Virus record (IMG/VR): IMGVR_UViG_3300002460_000048
Location: 1-41,190 of that record
Length of the DNA stretch: 41,190 nt
Reading direction: 5' to 3' (one strand)
DNA from: a virus
Part shown: piece by piece, positions 667-40,234 of the stretch
Numbering within the stretch: position 1 is the first letter of the stretch
Layout of the letters: every line of letters starts with the position of its first letter
The notes under the pieces: model-generated
Told to the model about the DNA's origin: nothing
The model's input: only the letters and a program-made list of their open reading frames with translations
Database searches by the model: none
Position numbers and translations under genes: made by a program

Positions 667-675
667 TGTTATACT
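667..675 (+). promoter_or_regulatory. extended -10 promoter, near-leaderless start for 685
   Basis: TGTTATACT has the TGN extension and TATACT hexamer at 670-675. The ATG of the adaptor gene is 9 nt further on and no ribosome binding site is present. An ATG at 680 is closed after four codons. Confidence 0.6.
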
Positions 676-684
676 AGAGATGGT

Positions 685-1893
685 ATGGCTTTGAGAATCC
701 GTGTGAAAAATCCTGACATTAGTCAGGAAGAAATTACTAATGTTTCCTCGGACTATTCTAGTGGAACTACACTAACTGTTCAAAGCAACGATGATATTGC
801 TGCTAATGATTACCTAGTGGTAGGCAACCCTGGTGAAGAAGGAGCTGAACTAGGCAGAGTGTCCTCAATAACTGGCAACACTACAGTTACCTTAAATGCA
901 ACTTTGAAATTCTCTCACGCTACAGGTACTCCAATCTTCCGCAGTTTATATAATCAGATAGCCGTTGAGAGAAAACCCTCCGCAGGAGCATACGCTTTAA
1001 TAGTTGAAGGTAACATAGAAATAGACTTTGATGCCCCAGATGGTTTTACTATTGTAAGTGTGGCGGCAGGAGCCACTACCGACACTTACAAGTGGCGATT
1101 CTACAACGTAGCCTCTGGCTCTTACTCTACTTACTCAGATGAGCTGGCTGGTACAGGACTTACCAGAAACAGCGTAGGCTACATGATTTCGGAGTTTAGG
1201 GTTCTCGCCTCTGTTCCAGACCATCAATCTTTACCTGATGAACAGATAATTAAATGGTTTAATGATTGTCATGATAGGATAGAAGCCAACAATGACAGGT
1301 GGTGGTTTCTTTTAACTGAAACGGACAACTCCACTACTGCTTCCGACTACACCTATGGACTTCCCTCTGACTTTGCCAGAATGGAGGCAGTAATTTTTAA
1401 TGATGGAGATATTACTTTCAGGCTTCACTACGTTCCTTTAGCTGAGTTTGACCAACTGAGAATTGATAACAGTTTTCCAGACGATGACACTTTGACTTAC
1501 TGGACACTTTTGCCACCTGATTCTACCAACACTAAAGGATACGTTGGAGTATTTCCTACACCAGAGACAGCCAGTCTTACCCTAACTTTCCGTTACTACA
1601 AAGAGATGGCGGTGCTGGATAGCTTTGGTGATACTTCCCTAGTACCATTCCCAGAAGTGGTAATTAACTACGCTCTGTGGAGATATTACCAGAGCAGAGA
1701 AAACGTGGAACAGCAGACTGTGTATAAGACTTACTACCTTGAAGGTATAGACATGATTAAAAGGATGCAAAGACGTGAGGTTGGAGAAAGTGCCACTATC
1801 AAGAGGTGGCTAGGACACAGAGGTAGAAGTAAATTGTTTGGAGCAAGGGTAGGGTTGTACTCAGACACATTACGAGAGAATTTCTGGAATTAA
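685..1893 (+). CDS. head-tail adaptor/connector-like virion protein
   Basis: 402 residues. The first ~150 are a Ser/Thr/Gly-rich beta-type region. From about residue 165 on the protein looks like a phage head-completion/adaptor protein (P22 gp4-type or T7 gp11-type position): YGLPSDFARMEAVIF, a middle with GYVGVFPTPE, and a helical C-terminus rich in Tyr, Arg and Glu. Such proteins form the ring between portal and tail. It directly precedes the gp10-like gene with a 3-nt gap, and its own promoter is at 667-675. The adaptor call comes from general sequence character and gene order. The function of the N-terminal domain is unknown. Confidence 0.6.
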   Translation: MALRIRVKNPDISQEEITNVSSDYSSGTTLTVQSNDDIAANDYLVVGNPGEEGAELGRVSSITGNTTVTLNATLKFSHATGTPIFRSLYNQIAVERKPSAGAYALIVEGNIEIDFDAPDGFTIVSVAAGATTDTYKWRFYNVASGSYSTYSDELAGTGLTRNSVGYMISEFRVLASVPDHQSLPDEQIIKWFNDCHDRIEANNDRWWFLLTETDNSTTASDYTYGLPSDFARMEAVIFNDGDITFRLHYVPLAEFDQLRIDNSFPDDDTLTYWTLLPPDSTNTKGYVGVFPTPETASLTLTFRYYKEMAVLDSFGDTSLVPFPEVVINYALWRYYQSRENVEQQTVYKTYYLEGIDMIKRMQRREVGESATIKRWLGHRGRSKLFGARVGLYSDTLRENFWN

Positions 1894-1896
1894 ACT

Positions 1897-2157
1897 ATGG
1901 CTGAAAAACCATTTCCCATCTTCGATTTTAGTCGAGGCATACAAAGAAAGACGAGTAAGTTTTTGCAAGAGGATAATCAAGTTTCATTAGCCATTAACGC
2001 TGATTTTAGCCGTATTGGGGCGGTGCAAAAGCAAAAAGGTTACTCGCAAAAAGGTAATGATGTCCCGACAGCAGGGGCCACTAGTACCACCTCTACTTCT
2101 ACATCCACCTCAACTTCCAGTACTACCACGAGCAGTTCCTCCACAACCACTCCTTAA
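1897..2157 (+). CDS. N-terminal part of a split gp10-like tail protein with Ser/Thr-rich tail
   Basis: 86 residues. Residues 1-55 (FPIFDFSRGIQRKTSKFL, then NADFSRIGAVQKQKGYSQKG) match the opening of P22 gp10-like packaged-DNA stabilisation/tail proteins, which normally run on for several hundred residues. Here the frame enters a Ser/Thr-only tract from about residue 62, ends in TTTP and stops at a double TAA TAA. The rest of the expected protein follows in another frame at 2175 with its own promoter. The mucin-like tail resembles the tail of the gene at 24924. It starts 3 nt after the adaptor stop at TAAACTATG without a ribosome binding site. Confidence 0.65.
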   Translation: MAEKPFPIFDFSRGIQRKTSKFLQEDNQVSLAINADFSRIGAVQKQKGYSQKGNDVPTAGATSTTSTSTSTSTSSTTTSSSSTTTP

Positions 2158-2162
2158 TAAGT

Positions 2163-2168
2163 TATACT
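2163..2168 (+). promoter_or_regulatory. -10 promoter element for leaderless gene 2175
   Basis: TATACT lies exactly 6 nt before the ATG at 2175, directly after the double stop of the upstream half-gene. Transcription would begin at the A of the ATG. No ribosome binding site is present. Confidence 0.55.
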
Positions 2169-2174
2169 TAGAGT

Positions 2175-3668
2175 ATGGCAGGCATATTTGGACTTGGGAG
2201 TTTGGACACGAGCGGTGGAACAGAGAAGTTAGTAGCCCTTAAAGACAGGCATTTTTGGGTCTGGAATTCTTCTAATAGTAACTGGGAACTTCAGACTGGA
2301 GCAGGTAAATATTTAACTGCTTCTACAGTAACTTACCATGAGGAGTTTCTTGACCATCAATTCTGGGTAAATGGTGTGGATGGCAACCGAACTTACAATG
2401 GCAGTTCTTGGTCGGCTACTACAAACATCTCTGATTCCCCTATTGGTACATACATCAAGCTGTTTGACGTCAGACTTTACTTGGGTAACCTCCAGCTACA
2501 AGTTCCAAACAATGCTAACTTGTCTTTTGCTTCAAGAATTTGGTACTCCAATCTACCCGAACAAGACGCTAACGGCAACTGGAGAATATCCTGGGATTAT
2601 GAAGCTGGTAGGGATTTGGTATCAGATGGAACTAACGATGTAACTTCGGCTAGTGCTACTTTTGTTACTAATGGTATCCAAGTTGGCGATCCTTTATACA
2701 TTATCAGCGGGGCTAACACAGGAAAGTATAGAGTTAGAGCAGTGGTAGACGAGACTAGCCTTACTTTGACTGAGGATGTAACTACTTTAACTGGACAGAA
2801 GTATTGGGTTGGCGGTAACTGGTTGGATTTGGATTTTGATGATGGCGATGTAATCACAGGTTTGAGTGAAAACTTTAGCAGACTCTTAATATTTAAACAA
2901 AATTCACTTCATGTTTGGGACGGGCGAGGATCGGATAAAATTAAAGGAGTTCCAGGAACAACCTCTCAACGCTCTGTGGCTTCCGTGAGGGACGCTACTT
3001 ACTATTTCCACCCTACAGGTATCTGGAGATTTAATGGTGTTACAGCCGAACTTATTAGCGAGCCAATTTGGGATGTGATTGAAGCTATATCTAGTTCCAA
3101 CTACGCTAATGTAGTTGCCTGGACTGATAACGCAAGGTTTGTAAAGTTCTACGTTGGCAATACTTCCGCTAACCTAGCGACTGACCTTCCTGCCATAACT
3201 AATTGTGTACTTGTGTACGATCTTACCTTAGATGCTTGGTCTTTGATGAGCCTAGCCCACACAGTTTCGGTTACTGCTCCCTGGATCGAAAGCTCGGCTC
3301 ATAAAATATACGCAGGCTTCTCAGACGGCCATGTCTACCAGCTTGAAACAGGAAATAGTTTTGACGGGACAGATATACCTTTTAGGTTAAGAACTAAAAC
3401 TTATTATCCTGTAGCCCCTCAGGTTACTATCAACGGCACGAGAATTGAGGAGTTTGCCAACGCAGGTCAAAACTTACAGATAGGCTACCGAAGAATTAAA
3501 CAACCTTACCCAGATGATAAAGAGTTTCGTCCTATTGGCGGTGCCTTTTCAGTAGCAGAGAGAGAGTTTAGAGGGTTGCAGTTTGAGATGACTGAGAGTT
3601 CTTCTAACCCTAGCTTTCTTTTAGAAGGTCTTACTGTATATTATGACGGAGCAAAGATTGAGCGATGA
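2175..3668 (+). CDS. gp10-like tail / packaged-DNA stabilisation protein, main part
   Basis: 497 residues, beginning MAGIFGLGSLDTSGGTEKLV, which is the point where gp10-like proteins continue after the GAVQKQKGY segment. The body has repeated Trp/Tyr-rich beta blades (FWVNGVDGNRTYNGSSW, RLLIFKQNSLHVWDG, YYFHPTGIWRFNG), typical of the phage tail hub/stabilisation family that closes the portal channel. The start is leaderless. The reading frame has a TAG immediately upstream of the ATG, so it cannot be fused to the 1897 gene by read-through. It overlaps the next gene by four bases (ATGA). Confidence 0.7.
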   Translation: MAGIFGLGSLDTSGGTEKLVALKDRHFWVWNSSNSNWELQTGAGKYLTASTVTYHEEFLDHQFWVNGVDGNRTYNGSSWSATTNISDSPIGTYIKLFDVRLYLGNLQLQVPNNANLSFASRIWYSNLPEQDANGNWRISWDYEAGRDLVSDGTNDVTSASATFVTNGIQVGDPLYIISGANTGKYRVRAVVDETSLTLTEDVTTLTGQKYWVGGNWLDLDFDDGDVITGLSENFSRLLIFKQNSLHVWDGRGSDKIKGVPGTTSQRSVASVRDATYYFHPTGIWRFNGVTAELISEPIWDVIEAISSSNYANVVAWTDNARFVKFYVGNTSANLATDLPAITNCVLVYDLTLDAWSLMSLAHTVSVTAPWIESSAHKIYAGFSDGHVYQLETGNSFDGTDIPFRLRTKTYYPVAPQVTINGTRIEEFANAGQNLQIGYRRIKQPYPDDKEFRPIGGAFSVAEREFRGLQFEMTESSSNPSFLLEGLTVYYDGAKIER

Positions 3669-4198
3669 GCATACTAACTGAAGATGAGATAGAGATAATA
3701 ACCCAGAATAAGGTTACTTATAAAGACAAGGGTTTTAGTAATTCTCTGCACCGATATTTTCCTGAACCTTACAGGTCTCCAGATGAGTTAGGTACAACGA
3801 ATACAAATGTTGGCAGGAAGATACCAGTCGTAAGATTTGATCCTAGAGAATTTATTGAAAAGTCTGATGTGGCTATTGTATCTTTTACTCTGCCTGCTAA
3901 CCTTCGGGCTACAATTACGATGAGGTTGGATTTAAAGTTTGAAGGTTTGACTATTGCGATCCCTCGCTGGTCTATTTACTCTTCAGTAGCAGGGGTAGAA
4001 ACTGAGATAACCGCTCCGCCGTTAGGTTTAGACTATACAATCTTTCCTACTGCACAGAATTATGAAGCCACTAAGGATTTAGACAATACGCATATATTAA
4101 AGGTAGGAGTTAGAGAAGATATTGGTTCAGACCAGGACTTTGTTTTCAGGGGAGAGTGGGTGTTCATTGGAGACTTAGTTGGAGGTGGGGCTGCATGA
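3665..4198 (+). CDS. hypothetical virion protein, 177 aa
   Basis: Starts on the ATGA overlap with the gp10-like gene and ends on an ATGA overlap with the next, so it is translated as part of the tail operon. Residues 55-177 are hydrophobic/beta-rich (VAIVSFTLPANLRATITMRL, FVFRGEWVFIGDLVGGGA) with no recognised motif. Context argues for a small tail or appendage component. Confidence 0.5.
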   Translation: MSILTEDEIEIITQNKVTYKDKGFSNSLHRYFPEPYRSPDELGTTNTNVGRKIPVVRFDPREFIEKSDVAIVSFTLPANLRATITMRLDLKFEGLTIAIPRWSIYSSVAGVETEITAPPLGLDYTIFPTAQNYEATKDLDNTHILKVGVREDIGSDQDFVFRGEWVFIGDLVGGGAA

Positions 4199-24707: not shown

Positions 24708-24911
24708 ATGGCAACTAGATATACAAGATCAGATACACATCTAAGTAACCTAGCGGGAGCGGTAAGAAGAATCCCTGGTGTTCCTCGCATCACTCTTACT
24801 GAACCTAACGAGCATATTGTGGGTGCTGTAACATACGATGGGACAAACGAGAGACTTTGGGTAAATGTAGGTGGTACAGCGCACACTTGGAGGTATATTA
24901 CTCTTACTTAA
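24708..24911 (+). CDS. small virion protein, paralogue of the 24924 gene
   Basis: 67 residues from ATG 24708 (a TTG nine bases earlier is within the terminator). It aligns with the first 65 residues of the next gene: RSDTH, a Gly-Val-Arg turn, YDGTNERLWVN, then a Trp-Arg-Tyr end against RTDTH, TTNSRLYIN and a Trp-Lys-Tyr end. Short beta-strand protein, perhaps a small head or tail surface component; no Ser/Thr tail here. Confidence 0.55.
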   Translation: MATRYTRSDTHLSNLAGAVRRIPGVPRITLTEPNEHIVGAVTYDGTNERLWVNVGGTAHTWRYITLT

Positions 24912-24923
24912 TAAGGATTATTT

Positions 24924-25262
24924 ATGGGCGTTGATCGAACAGATACACATTTTTTAAGTTTAGGGGGCAATATCAGAAGCGGGGCAGGACACCCGAATAC
25001 TTTTATTACTTCCGATGATGACACTGAAACTGGTGATTTGTTTCTTGATACAACTAACAGTCGTCTTTACATAAATACAGATGGTACCACTTCTGGTTGG
25101 AAATACTCAGCTTTAGTTACTACTTCTACTTCCAGCTCAACATCTACTTCTAGCTCAACTTCAAGTTCTACATCAACTACTAGCTCAACTTCCAGCTCAA
25201 CATCTACTTCTAGCTCAACTTCAAGTTCTTCATCTACATCTTCTTCCACAACTACACCATAG
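24924..25262 (+). CDS. small virion protein with mucin-like Ser/Thr tail
   Basis: 112 residues. Residues 1-65 match the preceding paralogue. Residues 66-111 consist only of Ser and Thr, closing with TTTP. The coding DNA of the tail contains an exact 42-nt direct repeat. The stop is followed at once by TGTTATACTTA and the leaderless 25279 gene, the same arrangement as after the 1897 gene. A Ser/Thr-only tail is a potential O-glycosylation substrate for the enzymes encoded downstream (inference). Confidence 0.65.
   Translation: MGVDRTDTHFLSLGGNIRSGAGHPNTFITSDDDTETGDLFLDTTNSRLYINTDGTTSGWKYSALVTTSTSSSTSTSSSTSSSTSTTSSTSSSTSTSSSTSSSSSTSSSTTTP
25128..25229 (+). repeat. 42-nt direct repeat, 60-nt period, inside Ser/Thr tail
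   Basis: Bases 25128-25169 recur exactly at 25188-25229. The unit begins ACTTCCAGCTCAACATC. It indicates recent growth of the low-complexity tail by duplication. Confidence 0.8.
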
Positions 25263-25263
25263 G

Positions 25264-25272
25264 TGTTATACT
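25264..25272 (+). promoter_or_regulatory. extended -10 promoter for leaderless gene 25279
   Basis: TGTTATACT, hexamer 25267-25272, exactly 6 nt before the ATG. Confidence 0.65.
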
Positions 25273-26693: not shown

Positions 26694-27995
26694 ATGAAAA
26701 AAATTGGCATCTTGAGTACGTTCTCAAATTTAGACCCCGCCTATTCCCTAGTTACAGTAGTTCTCCAGCAGTTGCAGATGTTAAAAAGAGGTGGCTATGA
26801 TCCTGTTCTGTTTGGTTTAACTAACTTTCAAGATCAGGATAAAGTTCCTGAAGGGGTCGAACTGAGAGCAGTTATCCCTCAGTGGATTCTTGAACCTTAC
26901 GGTGCTACAGGATCACCACTACCTTCTGACTTTGAAGATAACGTTAACAAAACAGTGGAAGTGTTTGAGAGAGAATTTGCTGACTTAGACTGCCTGATTG
27001 CTCACGACATCTGTTTTATCAACTCTTACCTTATTTACAATGTGGCCTTGAAAAGGGCAAAGCTAGATAAGCTACCTATGCTTCACCAGATTCATTCCGC
27101 CCCTAGCATGAGAGTAGATTTTCAACCTCCCTGGAATGAGCTTTTTGGTCTTCCCCATCCAAACAACTCTAAGTTAATATATATGAATTACTCTGAGCAG
27201 GTAGCGGCAGGTGAGATGTATGGCATTTGGCCTAAAGACGTAAAAGTGGTGTTTAACCCAATGGATATTAGGGAAATGTATAACTTCTCTGATCTTACCA
27301 GGGAACTGATAGACGCTTACGATTTGATGAGTGCTGATGTTATCTGTGTCTACCCAGTATCTTCTACCAGGATGATGGACGATGGCAAAGCAGTTAGGAA
27401 GGTTATTGCTGTTATGGGGTACTTGAAGGCGTTAGGACAGAAAGTAAAGCTAATTATTCCAAATGCTCACGCCAACGCTGAAAGGGAAAAACAAACGATT
27501 GCCGATTTTCTTACTCAGGCTAATCAGAGAAACTTAGGAGCCGACGAGGTTATATTTACGTCCTTGTTCAAGCCACCAGAGCACGAGCAAGGGATTCCGC
27601 ACCAAAACGTAATTGAACTTTTCCAGCTTGCCAATTTATTTATCTTTCCAAGTTTCTCAGAAAATGCTCCGCTTATTCTACTTGAGGCGGCGGCTACAAA
27701 AAACCTGTTGGTACTTAACGAAGATTTCAGGCCGATGCTTGATTTCTTAGGGCCTGAAGGCAGTTTCAACTTTCGCTTTAGAAGCAGGCTGGTAGGAGAA
27801 ACTCAATACGCTAACGGGGAAGAAACTTTTTATGAGGACATCGCCAAGATAGTATTATCTGATCTTAATAGCAATAAAGTGATGAAAGCATTTACAACTG
27901 TACGAAAGAAGTTTAATTTAGACTGGATTGCTCACAACCAGTTTATACCCGCAATCGAGGAGGTTATAGATGGAATATCAAGAGAACGAGCCTAA
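26694..27995 (+). CDS. GT4-type glycosyltransferase (GT-B fold)
   Basis: 433 residues. The N-terminal Rossmann half starts KKIGILSTFSNLDPAYSLVT. The C-terminal half has the retaining GT4 signature FIFPSFSENAPLILLEAAA, with the paired Glu seven residues apart that bind the nucleotide sugar, followed by NLLVLNEDF. It transfers a sugar from a nucleotide donor, acceptor unknown. First gene of the 13.5-kb glycan region, leaderless. Confidence 0.8.
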   Translation: MKKIGILSTFSNLDPAYSLVTVVLQQLQMLKRGGYDPVLFGLTNFQDQDKVPEGVELRAVIPQWILEPYGATGSPLPSDFEDNVNKTVEVFEREFADLDCLIAHDICFINSYLIYNVALKRAKLDKLPMLHQIHSAPSMRVDFQPPWNELFGLPHPNNSKLIYMNYSEQVAAGEMYGIWPKDVKVVFNPMDIREMYNFSDLTRELIDAYDLMSADVICVYPVSSTRMMDDGKAVRKVIAVMGYLKALGQKVKLIIPNAHANAEREKQTIADFLTQANQRNLGADEVIFTSLFKPPEHEQGIPHQNVIELFQLANLFIFPSFSENAPLILLEAAATKNLLVLNEDFRPMLDFLGPEGSFNFRFRSRLVGETQYANGEETFYEDIAKIVLSDLNSNKVMKAFTTVRKKFNLDWIAHNQFIPAIEEVIDGISRERA

Positions 27996-28632
27996 AAACT
28001 ATCCTGGGATTGATCGAGCCTTAGAGAGATGGAGGTTGAAAAAGGTTGTTATTCCGCCTGAACAGCGTAAGATTTACGAGGTATTGGCGACCACTCATCA
28101 AGGAAAGACTTTTGTAGACATTGGTTCTAGCTTTGGTGTAGGTTCTAATATTTTAAGCCACCGAGCATTGGGAGTTTGGGCAATAGACAAAGAGCAAGAG
28201 TTAATTGACTTTGGTACAGCCTTGTTTGCTTCCCCTCGGCTGAAGTTTGATATATATGACCTCCTGAGCCCCCCAAATCGTCCTACAGCCACTTTTGATG
28301 TGGTAGTGATGCTGGAGGTACTTGAACATTTGGTTAGGGATCAATGGGAGGCTGCTCTGAGTAACATAAAGAGATTCTTCAAAGAAGGTACGATTGGTTA
28401 TATTTCTACACCGAATCGTAGTGCTCCAGAATTAACTGGAGATCATCCTCAAAATGAACTTCATACTTACGAGGCTACGGCAGGAGAGTTTTACGAGATG
28501 ATGACTAAACATTTTAGAGCAGTGACGCTTTTCAGCGTACCTAAGTTGAAAGAGTTTGCTCAAGAGGAGACTTGTGATGGCAGTACTACTGAAACACCTT
28601 TAATAGCCAGATTAGAAGGAGGCGTTATATGA
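27970..28632 (+). CDS. class I SAM-dependent methyltransferase
   Basis: 220 residues. Motif I KTFVDIGSSFGVGSNIL, acidic post-I AIDKEQE, motif II FDVVVMLEVLEHL typical of Methyltransf_11/23 proteins. It overlaps the GT4 gene by 26 nt and is coupled to the next by ATGA. Within a glycan operon it probably methylates a sugar hydroxyl or carboxyl; substrate unknown. Confidence 0.75.
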   Translation: MEYQENEPKNYPGIDRALERWRLKKVVIPPEQRKIYEVLATTHQGKTFVDIGSSFGVGSNILSHRALGVWAIDKEQELIDFGTALFASPRLKFDIYDLLSPPNRPTATFDVVVMLEVLEHLVRDQWEAALSNIKRFFKEGTIGYISTPNRSAPELTGDHPQNELHTYEATAGEFYEMMTKHFRAVTLFSVPKLKEFAQEETCDGSTTETPLIARLEGGVI

Positions 28633-29516
28633 GTAAGATTTTATTAACGGGTTCGGCGGGATTTATCGGGCGTAACTTGCTGGTGGAGCTACTCAACCGA
28701 GGACATGAGGTTACTTCCCTTGATCGTCTGTTTGGTGCGGATTTATCTGATCGGGAGACTATTGACCAAAATGTAAAGATAGTAGATCAGGTGATCCATT
28801 TAGCCGCCATTGCTGACCTTAATTACGCTCGAGAACACCCTGAACAAACATTTAAAACTAATATTGAAGGGACTTGGAACATAGCTGAGTTTAGTGCTAA
28901 ACATAACAAGAGATTGCTCTATGCCTCTACATGTTGTATTTACGGTGATCAGGATTTTGAGAAGTATCCAGAAACTACAGAAGAGTCGCCACCTAATCCA
29001 AATGAAATTTATGCTTACTCTAAATATATCGGTGAGCTAATTATTAAAAGTTTTAACTTTACGCACGGGTTAAATTATGTAAACATGAGGTTTCCAACCA
29101 CTTTCGGTGAGCCAGGACAAAGAGAGGTCTTAGGTGTCAAGATATTCTTTCGACAAGCGATGGAGGGTAAGCCCATTACAGTTCATGGAGACGGCTTACA
29201 AACCCGAACTCTTACCCACATATCAGACTTGGTTGAAGCGGTGGTTAGGTTAGTAGAAAAGCCAGACTTAAACAATTTTGCTATTAATCTCTCTACCGAA
29301 GAAAGCGTATCGGCTAACGATATGGCAGAACAGATCAGGACTATTACAGGTTCGACTTCTCCAATTATTCACGTTGGGCAAAGGCCAGGCCAAACAATGA
29401 AAGAAGCAATTAAATCTACAAAGGCTAAAGAGTTACTTGATTGGGAAGCTAAAGTTAAGTTTGAAGATGGGCTTAATCAGTGCTATGAAGTTTTACTGAA
29501 GGAGAAAAGTAAATGA
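28629..29516 (+). CDS. NAD-dependent epimerase/dehydratase (extended SDR)
   Basis: 295 residues. Nucleotide motif GSAGFIGRNL (9-18 region), HLAAIAD, catalytic Ser/Thr in YASTCCIYG, Tyr-x3-Lys in YAYSKYIGE, and downstream RFPTTFGEPGQ. All catalytic residues are present. Family includes UDP-glucose 4-epimerase and dTDP/GDP-sugar reductases; which sugar nucleotide is used cannot be read. ATGA overlaps on both sides. Confidence 0.8.
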   Translation: MSKILLTGSAGFIGRNLLVELLNRGHEVTSLDRLFGADLSDRETIDQNVKIVDQVIHLAAIADLNYAREHPEQTFKTNIEGTWNIAEFSAKHNKRLLYASTCCIYGDQDFEKYPETTEESPPNPNEIYAYSKYIGELIIKSFNFTHGLNYVNMRFPTTFGEPGQREVLGVKIFFRQAMEGKPITVHGDGLQTRTLTHISDLVEAVVRLVEKPDLNNFAINLSTEESVSANDMAEQIRTITGSTSPIIHVGQRPGQTMKEAIKSTKAKELLDWEAKVKFEDGLNQCYEVLLKEKSK

Positions 29517-30286
29517 CTGTTGGGATATGCGGATATGGAAAAGTAGGCCAAGCAGTAACTAGCCTTTTCTCAAAAAACGGTACTATTCCCCGTGTGTATG
29601 ACCCTCCATTGGAAAGAAATGATTTAAATACTTTTAAAAGTGATTACTTGTTTATTTGTGTACCTACCCCACCTAACCCGAATGGCAGTTGTGATACAAG
29701 TATTGTAGAAGCTACTTTAGCTAAATCTGAGGCTAAAATAAACATTATCCGCTCGACTGTTTGGGTTGGGTTTACTGATTTTATGAAGGATAGGTTTATG
29801 AAGGAAATGAAGCGTATTGTGTTTATGCCAGAGTACGGGCCTTCAGAGTTTCCAAACCATCCTTTTAACGATGTTAGTAAGATTCCCTGGGCTGTGGTTG
29901 GTGGAACACCATCTGATACAGCCGAAGTAGCAGACTTATGGGAAAAACTGCTTTACAATGTAAAAGTATTTCAAACCCAGGCTAGGATCGCAGAGTTATT
30001 AAAGTTGGTTGAAAATGCCTATTTTTACTCTAAATTAACTTTCTTTAATCAGGTTTACGATATTTGCAAAGTCTATAGTATTGACTATGATGATCTGCGC
30101 ATGATGCTTACAGAAGACCCTAGAATTGATTCAGACCACACTTTTATTCATGACAATAACAGAAAGATAGGTGGACGCTGTTTGCCTAAAGATATGGATA
30201 ATTTGATTCATGGCGTGAAACAGTACAATAATATTAGTGTGGAGTTCTTGGAATTATTAAGGAGCCTAAATGAGAAACGAAAGTAA
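29513..30286 (+). CDS. UDP-glucose/GDP-mannose dehydrogenase-like, C-terminal domain absent
   Basis: 257 residues against about 430 for typical Ugd. NAD-binding GYGKVGQA (7-14), FICVPTPPNPNG, RSTVWVG (80-86), the central dimer helix LLKLVENAYFYSKLTFFNQV and the catalytic Cys223 in GGRCLPKD are kept, but the C-terminal UDP-binding domain is missing. It may work on a different substrate or need a partner protein. In the pathway it would make a uronic acid donor. Confidence 0.75.
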   Translation: MTVGICGYGKVGQAVTSLFSKNGTIPRVYDPPLERNDLNTFKSDYLFICVPTPPNPNGSCDTSIVEATLAKSEAKINIIRSTVWVGFTDFMKDRFMKEMKRIVFMPEYGPSEFPNHPFNDVSKIPWAVVGGTPSDTAEVADLWEKLLYNVKVFQTQARIAELLKLVENAYFYSKLTFFNQVYDICKVYSIDYDDLRMMLTEDPRIDSDHTFIHDNNRKIGGRCLPKDMDNLIHGVKQYNNISVEFLELLRSLNEKRK

Positions 30287-31214
30287 TCTTGATATATTGC
30301 AAGACCAGCTAGAAGAGTTGCTAAGGAAAGAGGCTGATAAAGTTAAAGGGTTACCTTTAGCCTTATCAGGCGGTGTGGATAGCAGCCTTTTGGCGGCTTT
30401 GGCTGAACCAAGATATGTGGTGAGTGTAGGGTTGCCAGTAGGTAAACACAACGAGACTGATTATTCAAAGAAGGTGGCAGATCATCTAGGGATTGAGCAA
30501 ATTATAATTTACCCTGATGATGACAAGTTTGATAACTACTTTGAAAAGGCTGTAAGGGCGATTGGTAGGCCGATACCTCACTTCAACATTTTTCCTTTGT
30601 ATTGTATGTACGAGTACTTATCTTCAAGGGGTGAGTTGGCTTTGGTGTTAGGTGATGGGCCAGATGAAACAATGTGCGGGTATGGCAGGAACTTAATAAT
30701 GGAGTACCTTTACAGGATTTACAACTTTGATGCCTTTGAAACTTACAAACCAACTATTGATAAGGTACTGCCAAACTTTCTGGAAAGTTACCTAAAGGTG
30801 TTGGGCAAAGAAGATGCAGTGCTACCTAATCTTGAAGGTTTAAGCCGTGATCAGATAATGTGCCGTTTGGATATGGATTTGATGAGGCCAGACATGGACG
30901 ATATGAGCAACAAGATAGCTGAATCCTTTGGTATCACCAACATTAGGCCATATCAAGATAACCAAGAAGTTGATAACTTTATGTACGAGTTACCTTTAGA
31001 AGCAAAGATTCATGGAGTGGAATATGGCAAGTACCTATTGAGGAGAATTGCTGAGAAGTATCTTCCAAAGGAGATTGCATGGAGAAAAGCTAAAGTTGGT
31101 GGGCCTGTATTTAATGTAAACATATTTAAAGGTTGGGATAAAACTGATGGGGAATTTGGAAAAAAGACTTACTTAGAGAAACAGCAGAAGATACTAAATA
31201 ATGACTACAATTAG
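30270..31214 (+). CDS. asparagine-synthetase-like amidotransferase without glutaminase domain
   Basis: 314 residues. ATP-pyrophosphatase loop LALSGGVDSSLLAAL (about 31-45), then LVLGDGPDETMCGYGRN, the AsnB synthetase-domain signature, and a C-terminal GKYLLRRIAEKYLPKEIAWR. The N-terminal Cys-dependent glutaminase of AsnB is absent, so it must use ammonia or a separate amidase. Related proteins amidate sugar carboxylates in surface glycan loci; next to the dehydrogenase this would make a uronamide (inference). Confidence 0.75.
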   Translation: MRNESNLDILQDQLEELLRKEADKVKGLPLALSGGVDSSLLAALAEPRYVVSVGLPVGKHNETDYSKKVADHLGIEQIIIYPDDDKFDNYFEKAVRAIGRPIPHFNIFPLYCMYEYLSSRGELALVLGDGPDETMCGYGRNLIMEYLYRIYNFDAFETYKPTIDKVLPNFLESYLKVLGKEDAVLPNLEGLSRDQIMCRLDMDLMRPDMDDMSNKIAESFGITNIRPYQDNQEVDNFMYELPLEAKIHGVEYGKYLLRRIAEKYLPKEIAWRKAKVGGPVFNVNIFKGWDKTDGEFGKKTYLEKQQKILNNDYN

Positions 31215-31905
31215 TGTAATTGTTACCCACTGGGCTCAAAATGATCTCCGTTCAGAGACTATGCGAACATGTGTACTGTCTCTGATAAATACCACTAAAG
31301 ATACTCCATGCGAGATTATTGTAGTTGATAATGGGGAAAGCTATGAGGACTCTGTTTGGTTACTGCAACAGGTTAATAGGAAGAATATACATCACTACAT
31401 CAGAAATAGCGAAAACCTCTATTTTGGTTACGCTCGTAATCAGGCCATAAAGCTGTCTATGGGGGACTATATTGTGGTAAGTGATAATGATATTGAGTAC
31501 AAACCTGGTTGGATTGAGGAGTGTGTAAAAATACTTGAGGCTTTTCCAGAGGAGAAGCTATTGGTAACTCCATTGAAAACAGATAGGGAACACCGATCAG
31601 AGAAGTATTGGAGAGGGATTCGTACAGTTGAAGGTAAGAGTTACTTGTTAAACGCACGGGCTGGGTCTAATTCCTGGATGATGAGGCGGGAAACATTTGA
31701 GGAAGTAGGGAGGTTTGTAAACCATAGGATTGCAGGTTCTAAGTGGATTGTGGCGGCTAATAATAAAGGTTATAACGTTGTTACTATGGAAACTGAGCCT
31801 TTAGCTGTCGATATGGGTTTTACCAAAGGGTACAATTTTAAGGAGACACCAATATTGAAGAAAGTTCTTACGGACGGATCAGAAGTAATATTAAATGAAG
31901 GATAA
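31201..31905 (+). CDS. GT2-type glycosyltransferase (GT-A)
   Basis: 234 residues. SVIVTHWAQND, then EIIVVDNGESYED, the NxGYARN-type helix (LYFGYARNQAI) and the metal-binding GDYIVVSDNDIEYKPGW. A later SNSWMMRRETFEEVGRF is the GT2 acceptor-region motif. Overlaps the amidotransferase gene by 14 nt. Donor and acceptor unknown. Confidence 0.8.
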   Translation: MTTISVIVTHWAQNDLRSETMRTCVLSLINTTKDTPCEIIVVDNGESYEDSVWLLQQVNRKNIHHYIRNSENLYFGYARNQAIKLSMGDYIVVSDNDIEYKPGWIEECVKILEAFPEEKLLVTPLKTDREHRSEKYWRGIRTVEGKSYLLNARAGSNSWMMRRETFEEVGRFVNHRIAGSKWIVAANNKGYNVVTMETEPLAVDMGFTKGYNFKETPILKKVLTDGSEVILNEG

Positions 31906-31907
31906 AG

Positions 31908-32594
31908 ATGAACTCTTTAGCAATCAATTTAATGACCTATCAAGCAGAATATCTTTTGCCATTTGTTTTAAAAGCAGTTCTGCCTTTTGTGGAAGAGGCT
32001 CATGTAATAGACACAGGCTCAACTGATAAAACAATGGAAATATTAAAAGAGATTAAAACGTCATATCCATTTTTAGAGTATGAACAATTTGATGTCCAAC
32101 ATTTAGGGAGGACTTGGGTAGATGATGCGAAAAATGTAGCTTTAACTGAACTGTTAAATAAATTGAGAACTAAGACTAAATCTGAATGGATACTAAAAAT
32201 TGATGATGATGAGGTCTTTCCTGATTTAACTATGCAAGACATACTTGACTTAGAACCGCCTCCAGATCGCCTTGTTTATTCCTGTTATTTTTATCACTTA
32301 GAAGGCGACCATATTCTTAACCCCTACTATCATAGGGGTTTCCATCCCATTAGGCTACTTAAAAATATTCCAGAGATAACTTGGGAAGGTAACTTTGGTT
32401 ATGAAGTTGTTGCTTACAAAGGGCATAGATTAAGTTCAAGAAGGTATCAAGGAGTTAGACATCCGTTTCTTCATGTAGGCGAGTTGAGAACTGGAATTTG
32501 GAAACATGATTACCGATTTCATGCACCTGGACATTGTGGTATTCCGATTCCAGAGGAGTACAGAAAATACTTACCCACAAAAAATAAACTATGA
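31908..32594 (+). CDS. GT2-type glycosyltransferase
   Basis: 228 residues. AINLMTYQAEYLLPFVL, HVIDTGSTDKTMEIL and the metal motif EWILKIDDDEVFPDL place it in GT2 (WaaE/KdtX-like TPR-less group). More AT-rich than its neighbours. Overlaps the HNH gene by ATGA. Confidence 0.78.
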   Translation: MNSLAINLMTYQAEYLLPFVLKAVLPFVEEAHVIDTGSTDKTMEILKEIKTSYPFLEYEQFDVQHLGRTWVDDAKNVALTELLNKLRTKTKSEWILKIDDDEVFPDLTMQDILDLEPPPDRLVYSCYFYHLEGDHILNPYYHRGFHPIRLLKNIPEITWEGNFGYEVVAYKGHRLSSRRYQGVRHPFLHVGELRTGIWKHDYRFHAPGHCGIPIPEEYRKYLPTKNKL

Positions 32595-33067
32595 AAAAGA
32601 TTATGTTTTCTAAAAATAAGTTTGCTATTGTAGATGATGATAACTTTTTGGAGTTGGTTAAATTTAAATGGAGCTACAGTAATGGTTACGTCTATAGACC
32701 CATTAAGAATTTAAATAAAAAACAGTTTAATATTTTGATGCACAGGCAGATAATGGGTTTTCCTCGAAATAAGCAAATAGACCACATTAATCACAACACT
32801 TTAGACAATCGCAAAATAAATTTAAGAATTTGTAGTTCCGCAGAAAATGTAAGAAACCAAAGGCTACATAAAGATAATACTTGGGGATTCAAAGGAGTTA
32901 GTTGTAGCAATGACAGAAAAAATAAAAGATTTATTGCCAGGATTGTGTTTAATAGGAAACAAATATTTTTAGGAAGATTCTATTCAGCAGAAGATGCAAC
33001 TGTAGTATATGACCAAGCAGCTAAAAAGTATTTTAAGGAGTTTGCGTATGTACCAAACCAAACTTGA
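32591..33067 (+). CDS. HNH homing endonuclease with AP2 domain
   Basis: 158 residues. The HNH core MHRQIMGFPRNKQIDHINHN, LDNRKINLRICS and an AP2-like C-terminus (GFKGVSCSNDRKNKRFIARI, LGRFYSAEDATVVYDQAA) are the classic phage free-standing homing nuclease. Such genes spread into cognate sites by double-strand break repair. It lies between two GT2 genes, overlapping both ends, and is AT-rich: a recent insertion. Confidence 0.88.
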   Translation: MKKIMFSKNKFAIVDDDNFLELVKFKWSYSNGYVYRPIKNLNKKQFNILMHRQIMGFPRNKQIDHINHNTLDNRKINLRICSSAENVRNQRLHKDNTWGFKGVSCSNDRKNKRFIARIVFNRKQIFLGRFYSAEDATVVYDQAAKKYFKEFAYVPNQT

Positions 33068-33734
33068 AGTAATTGTTCAATCTAAATATCAAGCTATTCT
33101 TGATGAATTTCTGCTTGGGTTTAAACCAACAACTGAAAAGTTTGCTAACTTAAAACTCCATGTTTTACAAGGAACTGACTTTGGGGCTCCAGCAATCAAT
33201 CCAATTCTAATAGATGCCTACAAGTCTGGAACTTTCGCTCTTGGTGTGTTAAATGACGATCTTTGGTTCGTTGAAGGATGGCTGGAAGATGTAGTAAATA
33301 AACTGCAAACTTATGATGCGGTATCTCCTGGCTATGTGGAAACAGATAATTTTGATAAGTTCTTACAGGCTATCGAGAAAACGGAAGAAGAAGATGGAGT
33401 GGTTGAACATTTCTATGGCCCTTGTGGTTTCTTTAAGACAAAGATATTTAGGCAAATTGGAATGTTTGATGAGCAATTTAGCTGGAGTTGTGATGACTTA
33501 GATTTAGCTTGGAGGATGAAGTTGAATGGGCTGAAGTCAGTAACTAGCAAAAAGATTACTACTGGACATTTAGTTGGAGCAACTAGAAATAAAAGTAACG
33601 AAAGTATATCGGCGTGGAATGTCGCTTCGGATAAAGCTAAACAGCAGTTTTACGACAAGCATGGATATCAATCTTATCGTGATATAAGGAAAGAATATAA
33701 AAAGGCTCATCAGTATTTCGTGGAATTTAAATAA
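33048..33734 (+). CDS. GT2-type glycosyltransferase
   Basis: 228 residues from ATG 33048, which has AAGGAG 8 nt upstream; an in-frame ATG at 33009 lies inside the HNH gene. VLNDDLWFVEGWLEDV (metal motif), FYGPCGFFKTKIFRQIGMFD and the Asp-Asp motif SWSCDDLDLAWRMKLNG are the GT2 acceptor/catalytic motifs. The usual N-terminal strand is short. Confidence 0.72.
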   Translation: MYQTKLEVIVQSKYQAILDEFLLGFKPTTEKFANLKLHVLQGTDFGAPAINPILIDAYKSGTFALGVLNDDLWFVEGWLEDVVNKLQTYDAVSPGYVETDNFDKFLQAIEKTEEEDGVVEHFYGPCGFFKTKIFRQIGMFDEQFSWSCDDLDLAWRMKLNGLKSVTSKKITTGHLVGATRNKSNESISAWNVASDKAKQQFYDKHGYQSYRDIRKEYKKAHQYFVEFK

Positions 33735-33735
33735 T

Positions 33736-34320
33736 ATGAGACTTAATATTGGTAATATAGTCAAAGCACACAGCCCACTAGGATTAGATTCATTGGTTAT
33801 AGATTGTGGTGGTTATGAAGGGGAATATTCACAAGAGATTCACGATAAGTGGAATCCAAATATTATTATTTTTGAACCCGTGCCTAAATTTTACGAGCTC
33901 TGTAAAGAAAGATTTAAAAATGATAATAAAGTTAAAGTTTTTCCTTATGCTCTCGGCAATGAAGTTGGGATGAGAAAGCTTTATGTTAATAAGGATGGTA
34001 CTTCTTTTTATCAAGAATGGGCTAAGTCTGATGATTCCATTGAGGTTAATGTCGTTAAATTGAGTGATTTTATTAAGGATAAGCACGTTGATATTCTTGC
34101 GATGAATTGTGAGGGAGCAGAATTTGATATTTTGCAGGATCTCCACAAAAATAATTTAATGCCTAATATTGAGGAGATATTGGTTCAATTTCATAGAGTA
34201 CCAGAGGTATTTGATGAAAAGTATGATCTAACAATTGATATTCTTAAAAAGACACATAATGACATATTTGATTTCAAAGAAAAATTTTATTTCAAATGGC
34301 AATTATGGAGGAAAAAGTGA
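33736..34320 (+). CDS. FkbM-family methyltransferase
   Basis: 194 residues. DSLVIDCGGYEGEYSQEI (motif I), IIIFEPVPKFYELC, and the family motif ILAMNCEGAEFDIL. FkbM enzymes methylate sugar hydroxyls in glycans and macrolides. Clearly AT-rich relative to the gmd and terminase genes, which suggests separate acquisition. Confidence 0.8.
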   Translation: MRLNIGNIVKAHSPLGLDSLVIDCGGYEGEYSQEIHDKWNPNIIIFEPVPKFYELCKERFKNDNKVKVFPYALGNEVGMRKLYVNKDGTSFYQEWAKSDDSIEVNVVKLSDFIKDKHVDILAMNCEGAEFDILQDLHKNNLMPNIEEILVQFHRVPEVFDEKYDLTIDILKKTHNDIFDFKEKFYFKWQLWRKK

Positions 34321-34805
34321 AAATAAATGTGGGAAGTGGAAAAAGGTATATTACAGGATTTCTAAACATTGATGTAGAAGAACGCTACCATCCTGACGTC
34401 ATAGCAGACTTCAGAACTCTGACGTATTCTGATGTTGAGGAAATCCACGCTCGACATTTGCTGGAGCATTTCGGTAGGGATGAGGCAATCAGGGTGCTGA
34501 AACAATGGCACTCCTGGTTAAAACCTGGTGGAACCCTTTTACTTGAAGTACCAGACTTTGAAGGGATTGTGGAGGATTGGAATAGCAATGACAAATATTG
34601 GTTGGTCAGGCACGCTTATGGTTCACAGGGAGAAGATGATTGGGCCTACCATAAAGATGGTTGGTATGAGGATAAGTTTAGGGAAGTTTTACCACAAGTA
34701 GGCTTTGAGATTGTAGATATGAAAAAGACACGTTCCCGTGTAAGAATTTCTCCAACAGAGAAGTATGCTTTACCAAACATTACTCTAGTAGCGAGGAAGA
34801 AATGA
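34317..34805 (+). CDS. class I SAM methyltransferase
   Basis: GTG 34317 is taken as start because GGAGG (34307-34311) lies 5 nt upstream and GTGA overlaps the previous stop; ATGs at 34296 and 34305 are further in. 162 residues: KINVGSGKRYITGFLNIDVE (motif I), IHARHLLEHFGRDEAI, WLKPGGTLLLEVPDFEGI. A glycan-cluster methyltransferase type; substrate unknown. Confidence 0.75.
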   Translation: MKINVGSGKRYITGFLNIDVEERYHPDVIADFRTLTYSDVEEIHARHLLEHFGRDEAIRVLKQWHSWLKPGGTLLLEVPDFEGIVEDWNSNDKYWLVRHAYGSQGEDDWAYHKDGWYEDKFREVLPQVGFEIVDMKKTRSRVRISPTEKYALPNITLVARKK

Positions 34806-35431
34806 ATGATCAACCGTACTGGGATTCCGTGTGGCAAAAGTTTCGTTATGATGATAGAAAGGATGTTTTAACTGCAATGGCGGATAGAGCAAATTCTTCT
34901 GGTTATTGGGATTCTTTATGGAATAGCCCAAAACGTAAGGTTGAAAAATATTCAATGCAGTGGGCTTGGTGGAGGATTCAAGAGTTTGGAGCTAAGTCTG
35001 TCTTAGATGTAGGTTGTGGTAATGGCAGACTTTTGTATGGGGTAAAAGATACTTGTGAGGTATTTGGTATTGACATATCTCCCGTAGCCATAGAAAGAAT
35101 GAAAAAGGAATACGGTATAGATGGATTGGCTATGGATGTTTACGAGATGGATAAATTAGACCGCAAGTTTGATTTCGTTGCGATCAACCATACTCTTGAG
35201 CATTTATGGCGTGATGAAGATATAGTGAGATTGTCATTTAATAGGCTTAATGACGGGGGTCATTTATTTGTAGCTGTTCCAAACAATATATCAGGGCCAG
35301 ATGAGACTGAGGAGCATGTTAGAAAGTATGATAGTACTATGTTGACACACTTGCTAACAAAGATTTTTGGTAACTGTACCATTAAAGTAATAGGTACACA
35401 CCTGATAGGGACAGCGGAAAAAAATGCTTAA
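34802..35431 (+). CDS. class I SAM methyltransferase
   Basis: 209 residues. An extra N-terminal 60 residues (YWDSVWQKFRYDDRKDVLTA) precede motif I KSVLDVGCGNGRLLYG, then VFGIDISPVAIERMK, FDFVAINHTLEHLW and DGGHLFVAVPNNI. All SAM motifs are intact. ATGA overlap with the previous gene, 8-nt overlap with the next. Confidence 0.8.
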   Translation: MNDQPYWDSVWQKFRYDDRKDVLTAMADRANSSGYWDSLWNSPKRKVEKYSMQWAWWRIQEFGAKSVLDVGCGNGRLLYGVKDTCEVFGIDISPVAIERMKKEYGIDGLAMDVYEMDKLDRKFDFVAINHTLEHLWRDEDIVRLSFNRLNDGGHLFVAVPNNISGPDETEEHVRKYDSTMLTHLLTKIFGNCTIKVIGTHLIGTAEKNA

Positions 35432-35951
35432 AATTTGTTGCCATGACGTTTTACAATCTAGTCATTTTAGTTCAAGTCAGTTGAAAGCTTTTGAAATAAA
35501 GTCTCCATTTGAATGGTTTAAGGAAGCTACAGAAAAGTGGCAAGACTACCCCCTTGTCTTAGCGGTAGTGGTAGAAGGAGTTAATCAATACCCAGAGTGG
35601 ATTAAATACATTGGAGACCACCCCAAATGGACTGTTCAGTCTCATGGGTTACATCATTGGAACTATAAACATCTTACTTATAATATGGCGGTTGATGAAT
35701 TAACTTTATCGAAAAAGTTGCTAGAAAAAACCTTTGGTCAAAAAGTTACTGAATTTTACCCTCCAAGGTTAGCTTATAATGACTTTACTCAACAGGCTGC
35801 TAAAGAAGCAGGGATGGTTGAAGTCAGGGAGAATTTTAGACCTAATCATTGGCTTAATGATAGAAGTATTCCTTCAATCTATTTTCATTATTGGAGCGGG
35901 GGTAATTTAAAGTTAATGGAGAAAGTATGCCAACTATTGCAAGAAAACTAA
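35424..35951 (+). CDS. polysaccharide deacetylase-like (NodB/CE4-type)
   Basis: 175 residues. KICCHDVLQSSHF at the N-terminus supplies the His-Asp pair, QSHGLHHWNYKHLT the SHxxHH metal motif, and EFYPPRLAYND the Pro/Arg motif of the CE4 fold. It would remove N-acetyl groups from an amino sugar. Smaller than secreted NodB proteins and without signal peptide, so it acts in the cytoplasm. Confidence 0.7.
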   Translation: MLKICCHDVLQSSHFSSSQLKAFEIKSPFEWFKEATEKWQDYPLVLAVVVEGVNQYPEWIKYIGDHPKWTVQSHGLHHWNYKHLTYNMAVDELTLSKKLLEKTFGQKVTEFYPPRLAYNDFTQQAAKEAGMVEVRENFRPNHWLNDRSIPSIYFHYWSGGNLKLMEKVCQLLQEN

Positions 35952-36403
35952 TAAACAGATCAATAGAAGAATATTCTAAACAGGTAAAAGGTAAAGTCCT
36001 CTTTGTTGGAGTGAATCATCAATGGCAGGATCATTATGCCAAATTGTTTGATGAGTTTGTAACAATGGATATAAGGAAAAATGTAGTAAAACCTGATATT
36101 TATGGGGATATTCAAAACTGTCCAGAAATACCAAAAGAGTCTTTTGATGGTGTAATTATGACTGGAGTTTGGGAATTACTTAAACGTCCATCAGAAGCAA
36201 TGTATGAAATCAACCGAATACTTAAATCAGATAATTTAGCTTTAATTTGTGTTCCAGGAGTAATGTTTTACAAAGATAAGCCTACTGTAGATTTAGATAA
36301 TTTAACTTCTACTTTTTATCCAATGAGAGTGGAAGAAGTAAGGGTTATTTATTATAAATCTAATGACCCCTTTTATTTCGCAGTCATAGCGAGGAAGTGC
36401 TAA
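35927..36403 (+). CDS. methyltransferase-like protein (Methyltransf_11-type)
   Basis: 158 residues. KGKVLFVGVNHQWQDHYAKL is a degraded motif I (Gly-rich turn replaced by GVNHQW), then FVTMDIRKNV, FDGVIMTGVWELLKRP, ILKSDNLALICVPG. Activity is doubtful because of the altered SAM loop. Overlaps the deacetylase by 25 nt. AT-rich. Confidence 0.6.
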   Translation: MPTIARKLINRSIEEYSKQVKGKVLFVGVNHQWQDHYAKLFDEFVTMDIRKNVVKPDIYGDIQNCPEIPKESFDGVIMTGVWELLKRPSEAMYEINRILKSDNLALICVPGVMFYKDKPTVDLDNLTSTFYPMRVEEVRVIYYKSNDPFYFAVIARKC

Positions 36404-36416
36404 GTTTGGTATACCT

Positions 36417-37079
36417 ATGGACAAGAAAATGACAATAACTTCACATACTATTGTGCGTAACGGGATGCCTTTTATCATCCCCGTTTTAAAGGCAGTTTCA
36501 CCTCTTATGACCAAAATGTTTATCACTATCTCCGAAAAGTCGGATGACGGAACTAAGGAGGCAATACTGGCATTGAACGATCCTAAGATTGAAATTGAGT
36601 ACGAGAATGTAGCCAAGCCTGGCGATCTTACTTATGAACGACAGAAGCAAGTTAATAAGACGGATACAGAGTGGATTCTCTTTTTAGATGATGATGACTA
36701 TTGGGATCAGTACGAGCTAGATAAAGCTATCCATGAGCTTGATTCAGATGTAGATGGGCTGGCTGTTAATCCTTATCAGCTAATAGATAAAGAAAATTAT
36801 GATTCTAGTTGGTGGAATAAATGGTTTACTAAGTTCTTCAGAAATGAAAATATCAACTATCGTGGGCCTTGGCCGAATGATTGGATTTACAAAGGGGATG
36901 AGATTCTTTACTGGAAAAAGAATCCAAGAATAAAGAAAGTTCCCTATCGGTTCTTTCACTTAGCAAATGTGAAACCACATTCCTTCCGAAAGGATGAGTT
37001 AACAAATTACAAGTATAATATAGGTCAGGCCGCACTTTTAGATCGGTCTTTACCTACCGAAATAGGAGGTTTATTTTGA
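36417..37079 (+). CDS. GT2-type glycosyltransferase
   Basis: 220 residues. TSHTIVRNGMPFIIPVL, KMFITISEKSDDGTKEAI and WILFLDDDDYWDQYELD (metal motif) place it among the short GT2 enzymes. The C-terminal half (PYRFFHLANVKPHSFRKDEL) is like that of the 31908 gene. Starts 13 nt after the previous stop; TTGA overlap with gmd. Confidence 0.75.
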   Translation: MDKKMTITSHTIVRNGMPFIIPVLKAVSPLMTKMFITISEKSDDGTKEAILALNDPKIEIEYENVAKPGDLTYERQKQVNKTDTEWILFLDDDDYWDQYELDKAIHELDSDVDGLAVNPYQLIDKENYDSSWWNKWFTKFFRNENINYRGPWPNDWIYKGDEILYWKKNPRIKKVPYRFFHLANVKPHSFRKDELTNYKYNIGQAALLDRSLPTEIGGLF

Positions 37080-38050: not shown

Positions 38051-38690
38051 CAGTCATGCCCATTTCTTTGGTGGTAAATCGAGACTTCGCAATTGGCAGA
38101 AAGAGAGACGATATCCTAGATGGTGTATTAACCGAATACCAATCTTTGAGGCGTTAATTGTGGGGGATGCTACTGCTTATAACCTACACAAAACAGGAAG
38201 TACTAGTCAAGGAAGGGAAAAGTTATTGGCTGCGGTAGAAGGTCTACCTAAAGGTAGCAAGATAATGCTGGTATTTGGGGAGATAGACTGTCGGGTTCAT
38301 TTGCTTAAACAAGCAAAGTTACAAAATAGACCGATTGAAGATGTTGTTAGTGAGTGTGTTGGTTGGTATATATCTGTCTTTTTAGAGCTGAAGAATAGAG
38401 GGTTTGAAATGATTGTTTGGGCGGTTACTCCAACAGCATTATTTGAAGGGGCAAAAGAATTTACAATTTACGGGACTTGGGAAGATAGGTTGTATGTAAC
38501 CCGACTATTCAACAAATACCTGAAAGAAATGGCAGAGCATAGTGGAATTAAGTTTTTATCTATTTTTGAGGAGTTGTTGAATGAAGATGGTCTACCTAAT
38601 CCAGATAACTATTCTGATGGTATACACCTAAACCAATATGCAATGCCTATTGTTCTAGCCAAAGTAAAAGAAATATATGAAAGAGGATGA
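38028..38690 (+). CDS. SGNH/GDSL hydrolase-like protein
   Basis: 220 residues. Block I KIYCIGDSHAHF (nucleophile Ser), block III MLVFGEIDCRVHLL, block V NYSDGIHLNQYAMP (Asp and His). This family includes glycan O-acetylesterases and acyltransferase-coupled esterases, so it may remove or place an acyl group on the glycan. Overlaps gmd by 23 nt and the cupin gene by 14 nt. Confidence 0.72.
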   Translation: MKIYCIGDSHAHFFGGKSRLRNWQKERRYPRWCINRIPIFEALIVGDATAYNLHKTGSTSQGREKLLAAVEGLPKGSKIMLVFGEIDCRVHLLKQAKLQNRPIEDVVSECVGWYISVFLELKNRGFEMIVWAVTPTALFEGAKEFTIYGTWEDRLYVTRLFNKYLKEMAEHSGIKFLSIFEELLNEDGLPNPDNYSDGIHLNQYAMPIVLAKVKEIYERG

Positions 38691-40227: not shown

Positions 40228-40234
40228 TGTGGTG

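Follow-up and report, generated by a model that had tools for sequence, protein, structure and literature searches.

By homology, two adjacent genes (ORF1 and ORF2) encode a podoviral nozzle of the P22 gp10, SU10 and T7 gp12 type as a two-chain variant, in which the N-terminal platform arm is a small protein of its own that ends in a Ser/Thr-only tail, and the nozzle body follows from a separate start. Nozzle proteins close the DNA channel of short-tailed phages. The genes lie in the window, the whole stretch of 41,190 nt analysed here, which is part of a virus record of 47,993 bases (labelled G000). That the nozzle is split we consider practically certain. In the complete reading that we favour, with a probability of about 0.57, the split nozzle would reassemble, the Ser/Thr tail would stand on the flank of the tail and probably be glycosylated, and a promoter-like box would start the body.

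Table 1. Features of the window discussed in the text
Feature	Position	Strand	Basis or remark
-10-like box, GTTATACT, before the adaptor ATG (685)	668..675	+	Sequence
SU10-type head-tail adaptor gene	685..1893	+	Pfam SU10_adaptor, E 1.8e-18; directly upstream of the nozzle genes
ORF1 (86 aa), putative platform arm of the nozzle with Ser/Thr tail	1897..2157	+	Translation; profile match to fused N-termini
Arm domain within ORF1, homologous to fused-nozzle residues 1-60	1897..2079	+	Alignment/profile
Ser/Thr-only tail, 24 Ser/Thr and then Pro	2080..2154	+	Translation
Double stop TAATAA	2155..2160	+	Sequence; single TAG in relative G001
GTTATACT at the split	2161..2168	+	TATACT 2163-2168; same box in L009
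TAG in the ORF2 frame	2169..2171	+	One codon before the ATG (TAG-AGT-ATG)
ORF2, putative nozzle body (beta-propeller plus C-terminal platform), 497 aa	2175..3668	+	phrog_3287, E 1.2e-10; AlphaFold model of fused homologue
Inserted domain in ORF2, ~65 aa	2619..2810	+	Alignment; L210 sequence; phrog_1980 match
Next gene	3665..4198	+	Overlaps the ORF2 stop by 4 nt
Small protein without Ser/Thr tail, paralogue of 24924-25262	24708..24911	+	37% identity over 60 aa, E 2e-13
Second Ser/Thr-tailed small protein, 112 residues (46 Ser/Thr), near the capsid gene	24924..25262	+	Translation
GTTATACT directly after the second Ser/Thr-tailed gene	25265..25272	+	6 nt before ATG 25279
Glycan island, ~13.5 kb	26694..40213	+	Pfam matches

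ORF1 and ORF2 are homologous to the two parts of one nozzle

Direct reading of the sequence confirmed the layout described in the initial annotation, with a Ser/Thr-only tract, TAATAA and a TATACT separated by six nucleotides (TAGAGT) from the ATG of ORF2. The ORF1 protein consists of MAEKPFPIFDFSRGIQRKTSKFLQEDNQVSLAINADFSRIGAVQKQKGYSQKGNDVPTAGA, 24 consecutive Ser or Thr residues and a Pro, and its C-terminal end reads ATSTTSTSTSTSTSSTTTSSSSTTTP. A TAG had been placed directly before the second ATG; it is indeed in the frame of ORF2, but an AGT codon stands between the two. With this TAG in place, no read-through or single frameshift would join ORF1 and ORF2 in this phage, and from separate frames, the second with its own start, two chains are expected; both points had been claimed. 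The nozzle genes come after the head-tail adaptor gene in the window, the same order is found in the relatives, and an adaptor homologue precedes the nozzle in 15 of the 15 records used for an adaptor tree. The gene that follows ORF2 had no Pfam or PHROG match.

HMMER found no family below E 0.07 for ORF1 alone, and an HMM search of solved structures by sequence gave no match. Since a PHROG scan with ORF1 and ORF2 joined returned a match no longer than that obtained without joining, a profile-profile test was used, in which the profile of the split arms matched that of the N-termini of fused nozzles (hhalign 99.0%, E 2.9e-18). In the alignment, ORF2 lacks exactly the part that ORF1 supplies. 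The fused homologues have the same arm and body, as expected if ORF1 is the opening and ORF2 the continuation of a gp10-like protein, and alignment with full-length homologues puts the cut within one gene, inside a continuous protein. Against the named phages, tblastn of ORF2 gave no match at E 1e-3; at a relaxed cut-off the matches were weak, the best (E 5e-3) being a single-chain "phage stabilization protein". ORF1 aligns with the N-terminus of this protein. Genome contigs searched with ORF2 and with the terminase gave no match, and therefore no host was assigned. The inserted domain of ORF2 matches the N-terminal part of the phrog_1980 tail fibre family; it is present in the aligned split nozzles and in the fused nozzle of L210, and absent from G030, G013 and the other fused relatives.

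The fused homologue of record G030 was modelled with AlphaFold from an alignment of 22 rows, in which the arm and the body of the window were separate rows. The model (pLDDT 87.1, pTM 0.86) predicts a platform plus a seven-bladed propeller for the fused protein with which the split arms and bodies align; ORF2 of the window modelled alone, with two sequences only, had a pLDDT of 32. The first matches of the G030 model in a Foldseek search against the PDB were nozzles of short-tailed phages: the Pa223 tail (TM 0.80, the best), Vibrio phage VP1 (TM 0.74), the SU10 nozzle (E 2e-17) and P22 gp10 (E 1e-15), as well as Sf6 gp8 and T7. The two parts are thus not always separate genes with unrelated folds, the case named in the initial annotation as speaking against a divided protein: L210, G030 and G008, among others, have them fused, and a single nozzle fold is predicted for the fused protein.

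The N- and C-terminal parts of the SU10 nozzle together make up the platform, which touches the adaptor; from the N-terminal platform part the chain runs into blade 1 of the propeller, and blades 1-3 lie away from the channel (PMC9509320). Judged from the alignments, the cut separates the N-terminal platform arm from propeller blade 1. Because this corresponds to the platform-to-blade 1 passage of SU10, far from the tail axis, the Ser/Thr tail should, by analogy, leave the tail on its proximal flank, near the adaptor, and not at the virion tip, where it had originally been located.

The split recurs among related phages

The nozzle family was collected with a degenerate Ser/Thr pattern in IMG/VR, followed by profile searches of the matched records. 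Most of its records were found in this way via their Ser/Thr tracts, which is an ascertainment to be kept in mind when they are counted; the last scan was blind to Ser/Thr. In the closest relative (locus L009 of record G001, 50,148 bases) the order is the same: adaptor, arm with Ser/Thr tail, TAG, GTTATACT, ATG and body, with identities to the window of 68% for the adaptor, 81% for the arm gene and 68% for the body. The arrangement of arm, Ser/Thr tail and restart was found in 11 further loci. In all 13 split loci the nozzle, from platform arm to C-terminal platform, is encoded by two ORFs instead of a single polypeptide, and each ORF2 starts at the same alignment position. A split at the same site with a Ser/Thr tail is present in records G000, G001, G019, G036, G014, G005 and G045, and the nozzle is fused in seven (G030, G023, G008, G010, G044, G006 and G038). 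The Ser/Thr-blind scan yielded 12 loci, 11 of them split, each with a Ser/Thr tail (11/11), and a fused one (L210) with no tail. The junction in L210 reads GYAKKGGSISGNLPILGAGSLNTSAGTNKLIAF, and its counterpart in the window is GYSQKGNDVPTAGA, the Ser/Thr tract and the stop, followed by MAGIFGLGSLDTSGGTEKLVAL in the second chain. As a minor observation, the body in two close relatives, L204 (at 3001) and L205 (near 1988), apparently starts with ATA, with no ATG at the aligned position; the ATA of L204 is preceded by GGAGG with a spacing of 5 nt.

A tree of 22 nozzles grouped the five fused members of the outgroup in one clade and nested the fused L210 among the split ones. Monophyly of all split nozzles was rejected (p-AU 0.006), with L210 falling inside. 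Re-fusion and repeated fission would both fit this tree. The nozzle of G013 (L197, 2650-3975) is fused at the arm site, and TAATG divides it at a second position close to the C-terminal part; its second chain comprises a folded domain, ~130 Ser/Thr-rich residues and then the rest of the C-terminal nozzle. Since this cut also comes with a Ser/Thr tract, fission accompanied by such a tract has, as far as the alignments tell, happened at two places of the same nozzle protein. Two close sisters inside the split clade, G045 and L206, have a beta-rich domain of ~215 residues after the Ser/Thr tract; that of L206 matches phrog_553, a minor tail protein family (E 4e-9).

The Ser/Thr tail is conserved as protein

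Every one of the 13 split arms has a Ser/Thr tract of 21-76 residues that begins at arm residue 57-64, and no tract was seen at that position of the arm in any of the fused relatives examined, which do carry Ser/Thr tracts elsewhere in their records. Between the window and L009, 21 of 23 tail residues are identical, compared with 6 of 23 codons. A switch between the TCN and AGY families is seen at 4 of 9 serines. Because the residues are conserved while the codons differ, the tail must be translated, with its residue order kept, and is under purifying selection at the level of the protein. The DNA of the Ser/Thr tracts is complex while the protein is not: in ~1,650 tract codons from two genomes all ten Ser/Thr codons are used, and the commonest 18-mer occurs only twice. 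Slippage of simple-sequence DNA, considered as a source of such tracts, is ruled out by this codon usage and by the near absence of repeated 18-mers. The term "mucin-like", applied to the tail at the outset, is fair for its Ser/Thr content and less so otherwise, as there is no proline repeat and glycosylation is suggested by the gene island only.

Start of the second chain

A Shine-Dalgarno sequence can scarcely be written in Ser/Thr codons, and a gene that immediately follows such a tract must therefore start by other means. A leaderless promoter had been postulated at the start of ORF2. As a motif, GTTATACT with one mismatch is not over-represented in the sequence (45 found, 47 expected). 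Its position, on the other hand, is far from random: TATA(A/C)T precedes the ATG by 4-10 nt in 12 of 68 genes of this phage, against 0.46 expected from other ATGs, and in 10 of 65 genes of G001, against 0.39 expected, giving 22 genes in both phages (window span 668-40605 and G001) where ~0.9 would be expected. The distances from box to start are 5-9 nt in this phage, and the rest of the 40 nt preceding its gene starts contains no box. As in leaderless promoters, -10 hexamers thus occur some 6-9 nt before the start more often than by chance. With a spacing of 6, the usual start site of a -10 box falls on the A of the ATG, and with 8-9 it leaves a leader of 2-3 nt. A weak -35 candidate for the box at the split is TCCACA (2140-2145). 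The promoter-like box therefore belongs to a real near-leaderless class, and we infer from the sequence that it is active as a promoter; together with the double stop, it does not, as had been supposed, define the split. Of the 13 split loci, just two (G000 and G001) carry GTTATACT at the junction; in the other 11 the distance from stop to start is -1 to 10 nt, with no box. The body would then be started by stop-start coupling in most relatives, and by a near-leaderless promoter in these two. Genes 16265-16750 and 40229-40582 also have a -10-like box just before the ATG; the latter resembles, by eye, a small HNH-type protein.

A glycan island accompanies the Ser/Thr genes

Between the second Ser/Thr-tailed gene and a Ser/Thr-rich gene at 44605-46317 lies a glycan island, which takes up ~13.5 kb of a phage genome of ~48 kb. 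It encodes a GT1 and four GT2 transferases, the sugar-nucleotide enzymes NDP-sugar epimerase, GDP-mannose 4,6-dehydratase (E 7e-119) and UDP-Glc/GDP-Man dehydrogenase, two methyltransferases, a GDSL acylhydrolase and an asparagine-synthase-like gene. At least two GT2 matches are present in each of the 19 nozzle-family records that reach 33 kb, and three family fragments (4, 14 and 32 kb) have none. The controls were ten named phages, a small set from other habitats, of which two had GT2, with one match each; the epimerase was found in 15 of the 19 family records and in 0 of these 10. The island and its distribution in the family support a probable O-glycosylation of the Ser/Thr tracts by enzymes of the phage itself. 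No protein-acting O-glycosyltransferase was identified among the candidate phage enzymes, and the glycosyltransferases may instead modify DNA or the host surface. Moreover, since the fused relatives also carry glycan genes, along with Ser/Thr tracts elsewhere, the island is not specific to this tail.

Proposed mechanism and alternative explanations

In the mechanism that we propose, gene fission cuts one nozzle protein between the platform arm and the first propeller blade, and the arm of ~60 aa would dock non-covalently onto the body, completing the platform as in the one-chain homologues. A podoviral nozzle is a hexamer that sits beneath a dodecameric adaptor and seals in the DNA; here, six such two-chain protomers would form on the adaptor ring. 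A stable two-part propeller needs the arm to find the body in the cell. The new C-terminus created by the cut would let the arm carry a Ser/Thr-only tail that leaves the tail flank near the adaptor, where it may serve as a flexible brush or stalk, probably O-glycosylated through the phage's own glycosyltransferase island. The extra terminal domain of two relatives suggests that an adhesin-like module could be displayed at the same site. The near-leaderless -10 box of this phage and its nearest relative would give the body a start of its own.

The split as such withstands the explanations that would do away with it. As the source is a metagenome contig, an assembly or sequencing error could in principle have broken an intact gene, but the same layout in an independent contig, at 68-81% protein identity, and in 11 more loci makes this barely conceivable, and the error allowed for in the initial annotation is ruled out. 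It is also highly improbable that programmed frameshift, read-through or bypass makes a single chain of the ORFs and that only this chain matters. The ORF2 frame is open across the Ser/Thr tract in a few relatives, as expected from composition, because the +1-frame codons of Ser/Thr tracts begin with C or G and are never stops; the 13 split loci include all three relative frames (0, 1 and 2), a mixture on which frameshift and read-through were rejected, the window has a TAG ahead of ATG 2175 in the ORF2 frame, and every ORF2 has its own start at the same place of the alignment. Equally hard to sustain is the idea that the nozzle gene is complete in itself and that ORF1, a small protein encoded before it, is unrelated. 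It would agree with the failure of HMMER to place ORF1 alone, but not with the profile match to fused N-termini, with the fused genes found at the same place after the adaptor, or with an ORF2 short of precisely what ORF1 provides.

We consider it unlikely, while taking it seriously, that the split nozzle bears a bare, unglycosylated Ser/Thr spacer or entropic brush, and that the island serves the host surface, DNA or other virion proteins. A Ser/Thr tail would be flexible without any modification, tracts of this kind also join folded domains in G045, L206 and G013, and the fused relatives too have glycan genes; yet a generic spacer would also permit Gly, Asn, Pro and Ala, whereas the Ser/Thr-only composition, and an exact Ser/Thr order that is retained while the codons change, speak more for a modified substrate, as do the several GT2 genes found across the family. 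Considerably less probable is a tail that has no function and is left over as a linker after loss of a terminal adhesin domain like that of G045. Such a history could be read from G045 and L206, which have the order arm, Ser/Thr tract, domain, while the other 11 split arms end after the tract; but this pair is nested in the split clade, so that a short tail is as likely to be ancestral, the tail is under purifying selection, and small virion-type proteins elsewhere end in the same way. We thus prefer the reassembled nozzle with a probably glycosylated tail. A broader proposal, which we put forward tentatively and at somewhat less than even odds, is that some uncultured environmental phages form a class covered by an O-glycan brush of their own making, and that fission repeatedly makes chain ends for the brush or for adhesins. 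Its Ser/Thr tracts would range from the 24 residues of the nozzle arm described here to ~1,565 of the 1,606 residues of an ORF in a related record, and fission would have opened the nozzle, a tail protein that is otherwise closed and folded, at two or more sites.

Relation to known systems

The fused homologue shares its predicted fold (TM up to 0.80) with the nozzles P22 gp10, SU10 gp17, T7 gp12, Pa223 and VP1, and the family has in common with podoviral nozzles the place after the adaptor gene and the order of platform plus propeller. In contrast to the solved nozzles that were matched, which are single-chain, the platform arm is here a separate gene with a Ser/Thr tail. Long Ser/Thr tracts are carriers of O-glycans in mucins and in glycosylated serine-rich repeat adhesins; the tracts described here are likewise long, but have no proline-rich repeats, are encoded by a virus and would be glycosylated only by inference. 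Virion glycosylation by phage-encoded enzymes was reported for mycobacteriophages Che8 and Rita (Freeman 2023, as cited in PMC11256854). Phage-encoded glycosyltransferases are a common trait, represented here, as read from the genes alone, by the GT1 and the four GT2. According to that citing account, the Che8 and Rita glycans are on the major capsid protein, whereas here there are Ser/Thr-only tracts, a full sugar-nucleotide island and a split that creates the tail. The mitochondrial cox2 gene, split into complementary genes, is described as a case of insertional gene fission (PMC5374615). As far as that description goes, it is alike in that one folded protein is supplied as two gene products, and differs in that we deal here with a phage structural protein, a conserved low-complexity tail on the new end and putative fission at two sites. 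In the open-access literature, a scope that mostly leaves out subscription papers and makes absence weak evidence, we found no report of Ser/Thr-tailed split nozzles. The two-chain nozzle family would represent a way of attaching an appendage inside a folded machine part without internal insertion. Taken with the glycan island, it would also open to test the idea that uncultured phages make their own glycan coats.

Other Ser/Thr-tailed proteins

The same reading would explain Ser/Thr-tailed small ORFs that are otherwise dismissed as low-complexity noise. The second Ser/Thr-tailed protein of the window and its tailless paralogue (24708-25262) sit downstream of the major capsid gene and are possible decoration proteins. 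The gene at 44605-46317 of G000 (L023, beyond the window) encodes a protein of 570 residues, ~87% of them Ser/Thr, and has GTTATACT before it. An ORF of 1,606 aa in L140 (2756-7573) has ~1,565 aa in one Ser/Thr tract. L088, L141 and L148 contain rows of 2-3 consecutive small ORFs (~70-190 aa), each with a terminal Ser/Thr tail, and several of the next starts in these rows lie within ~15 nt of the preceding stop.
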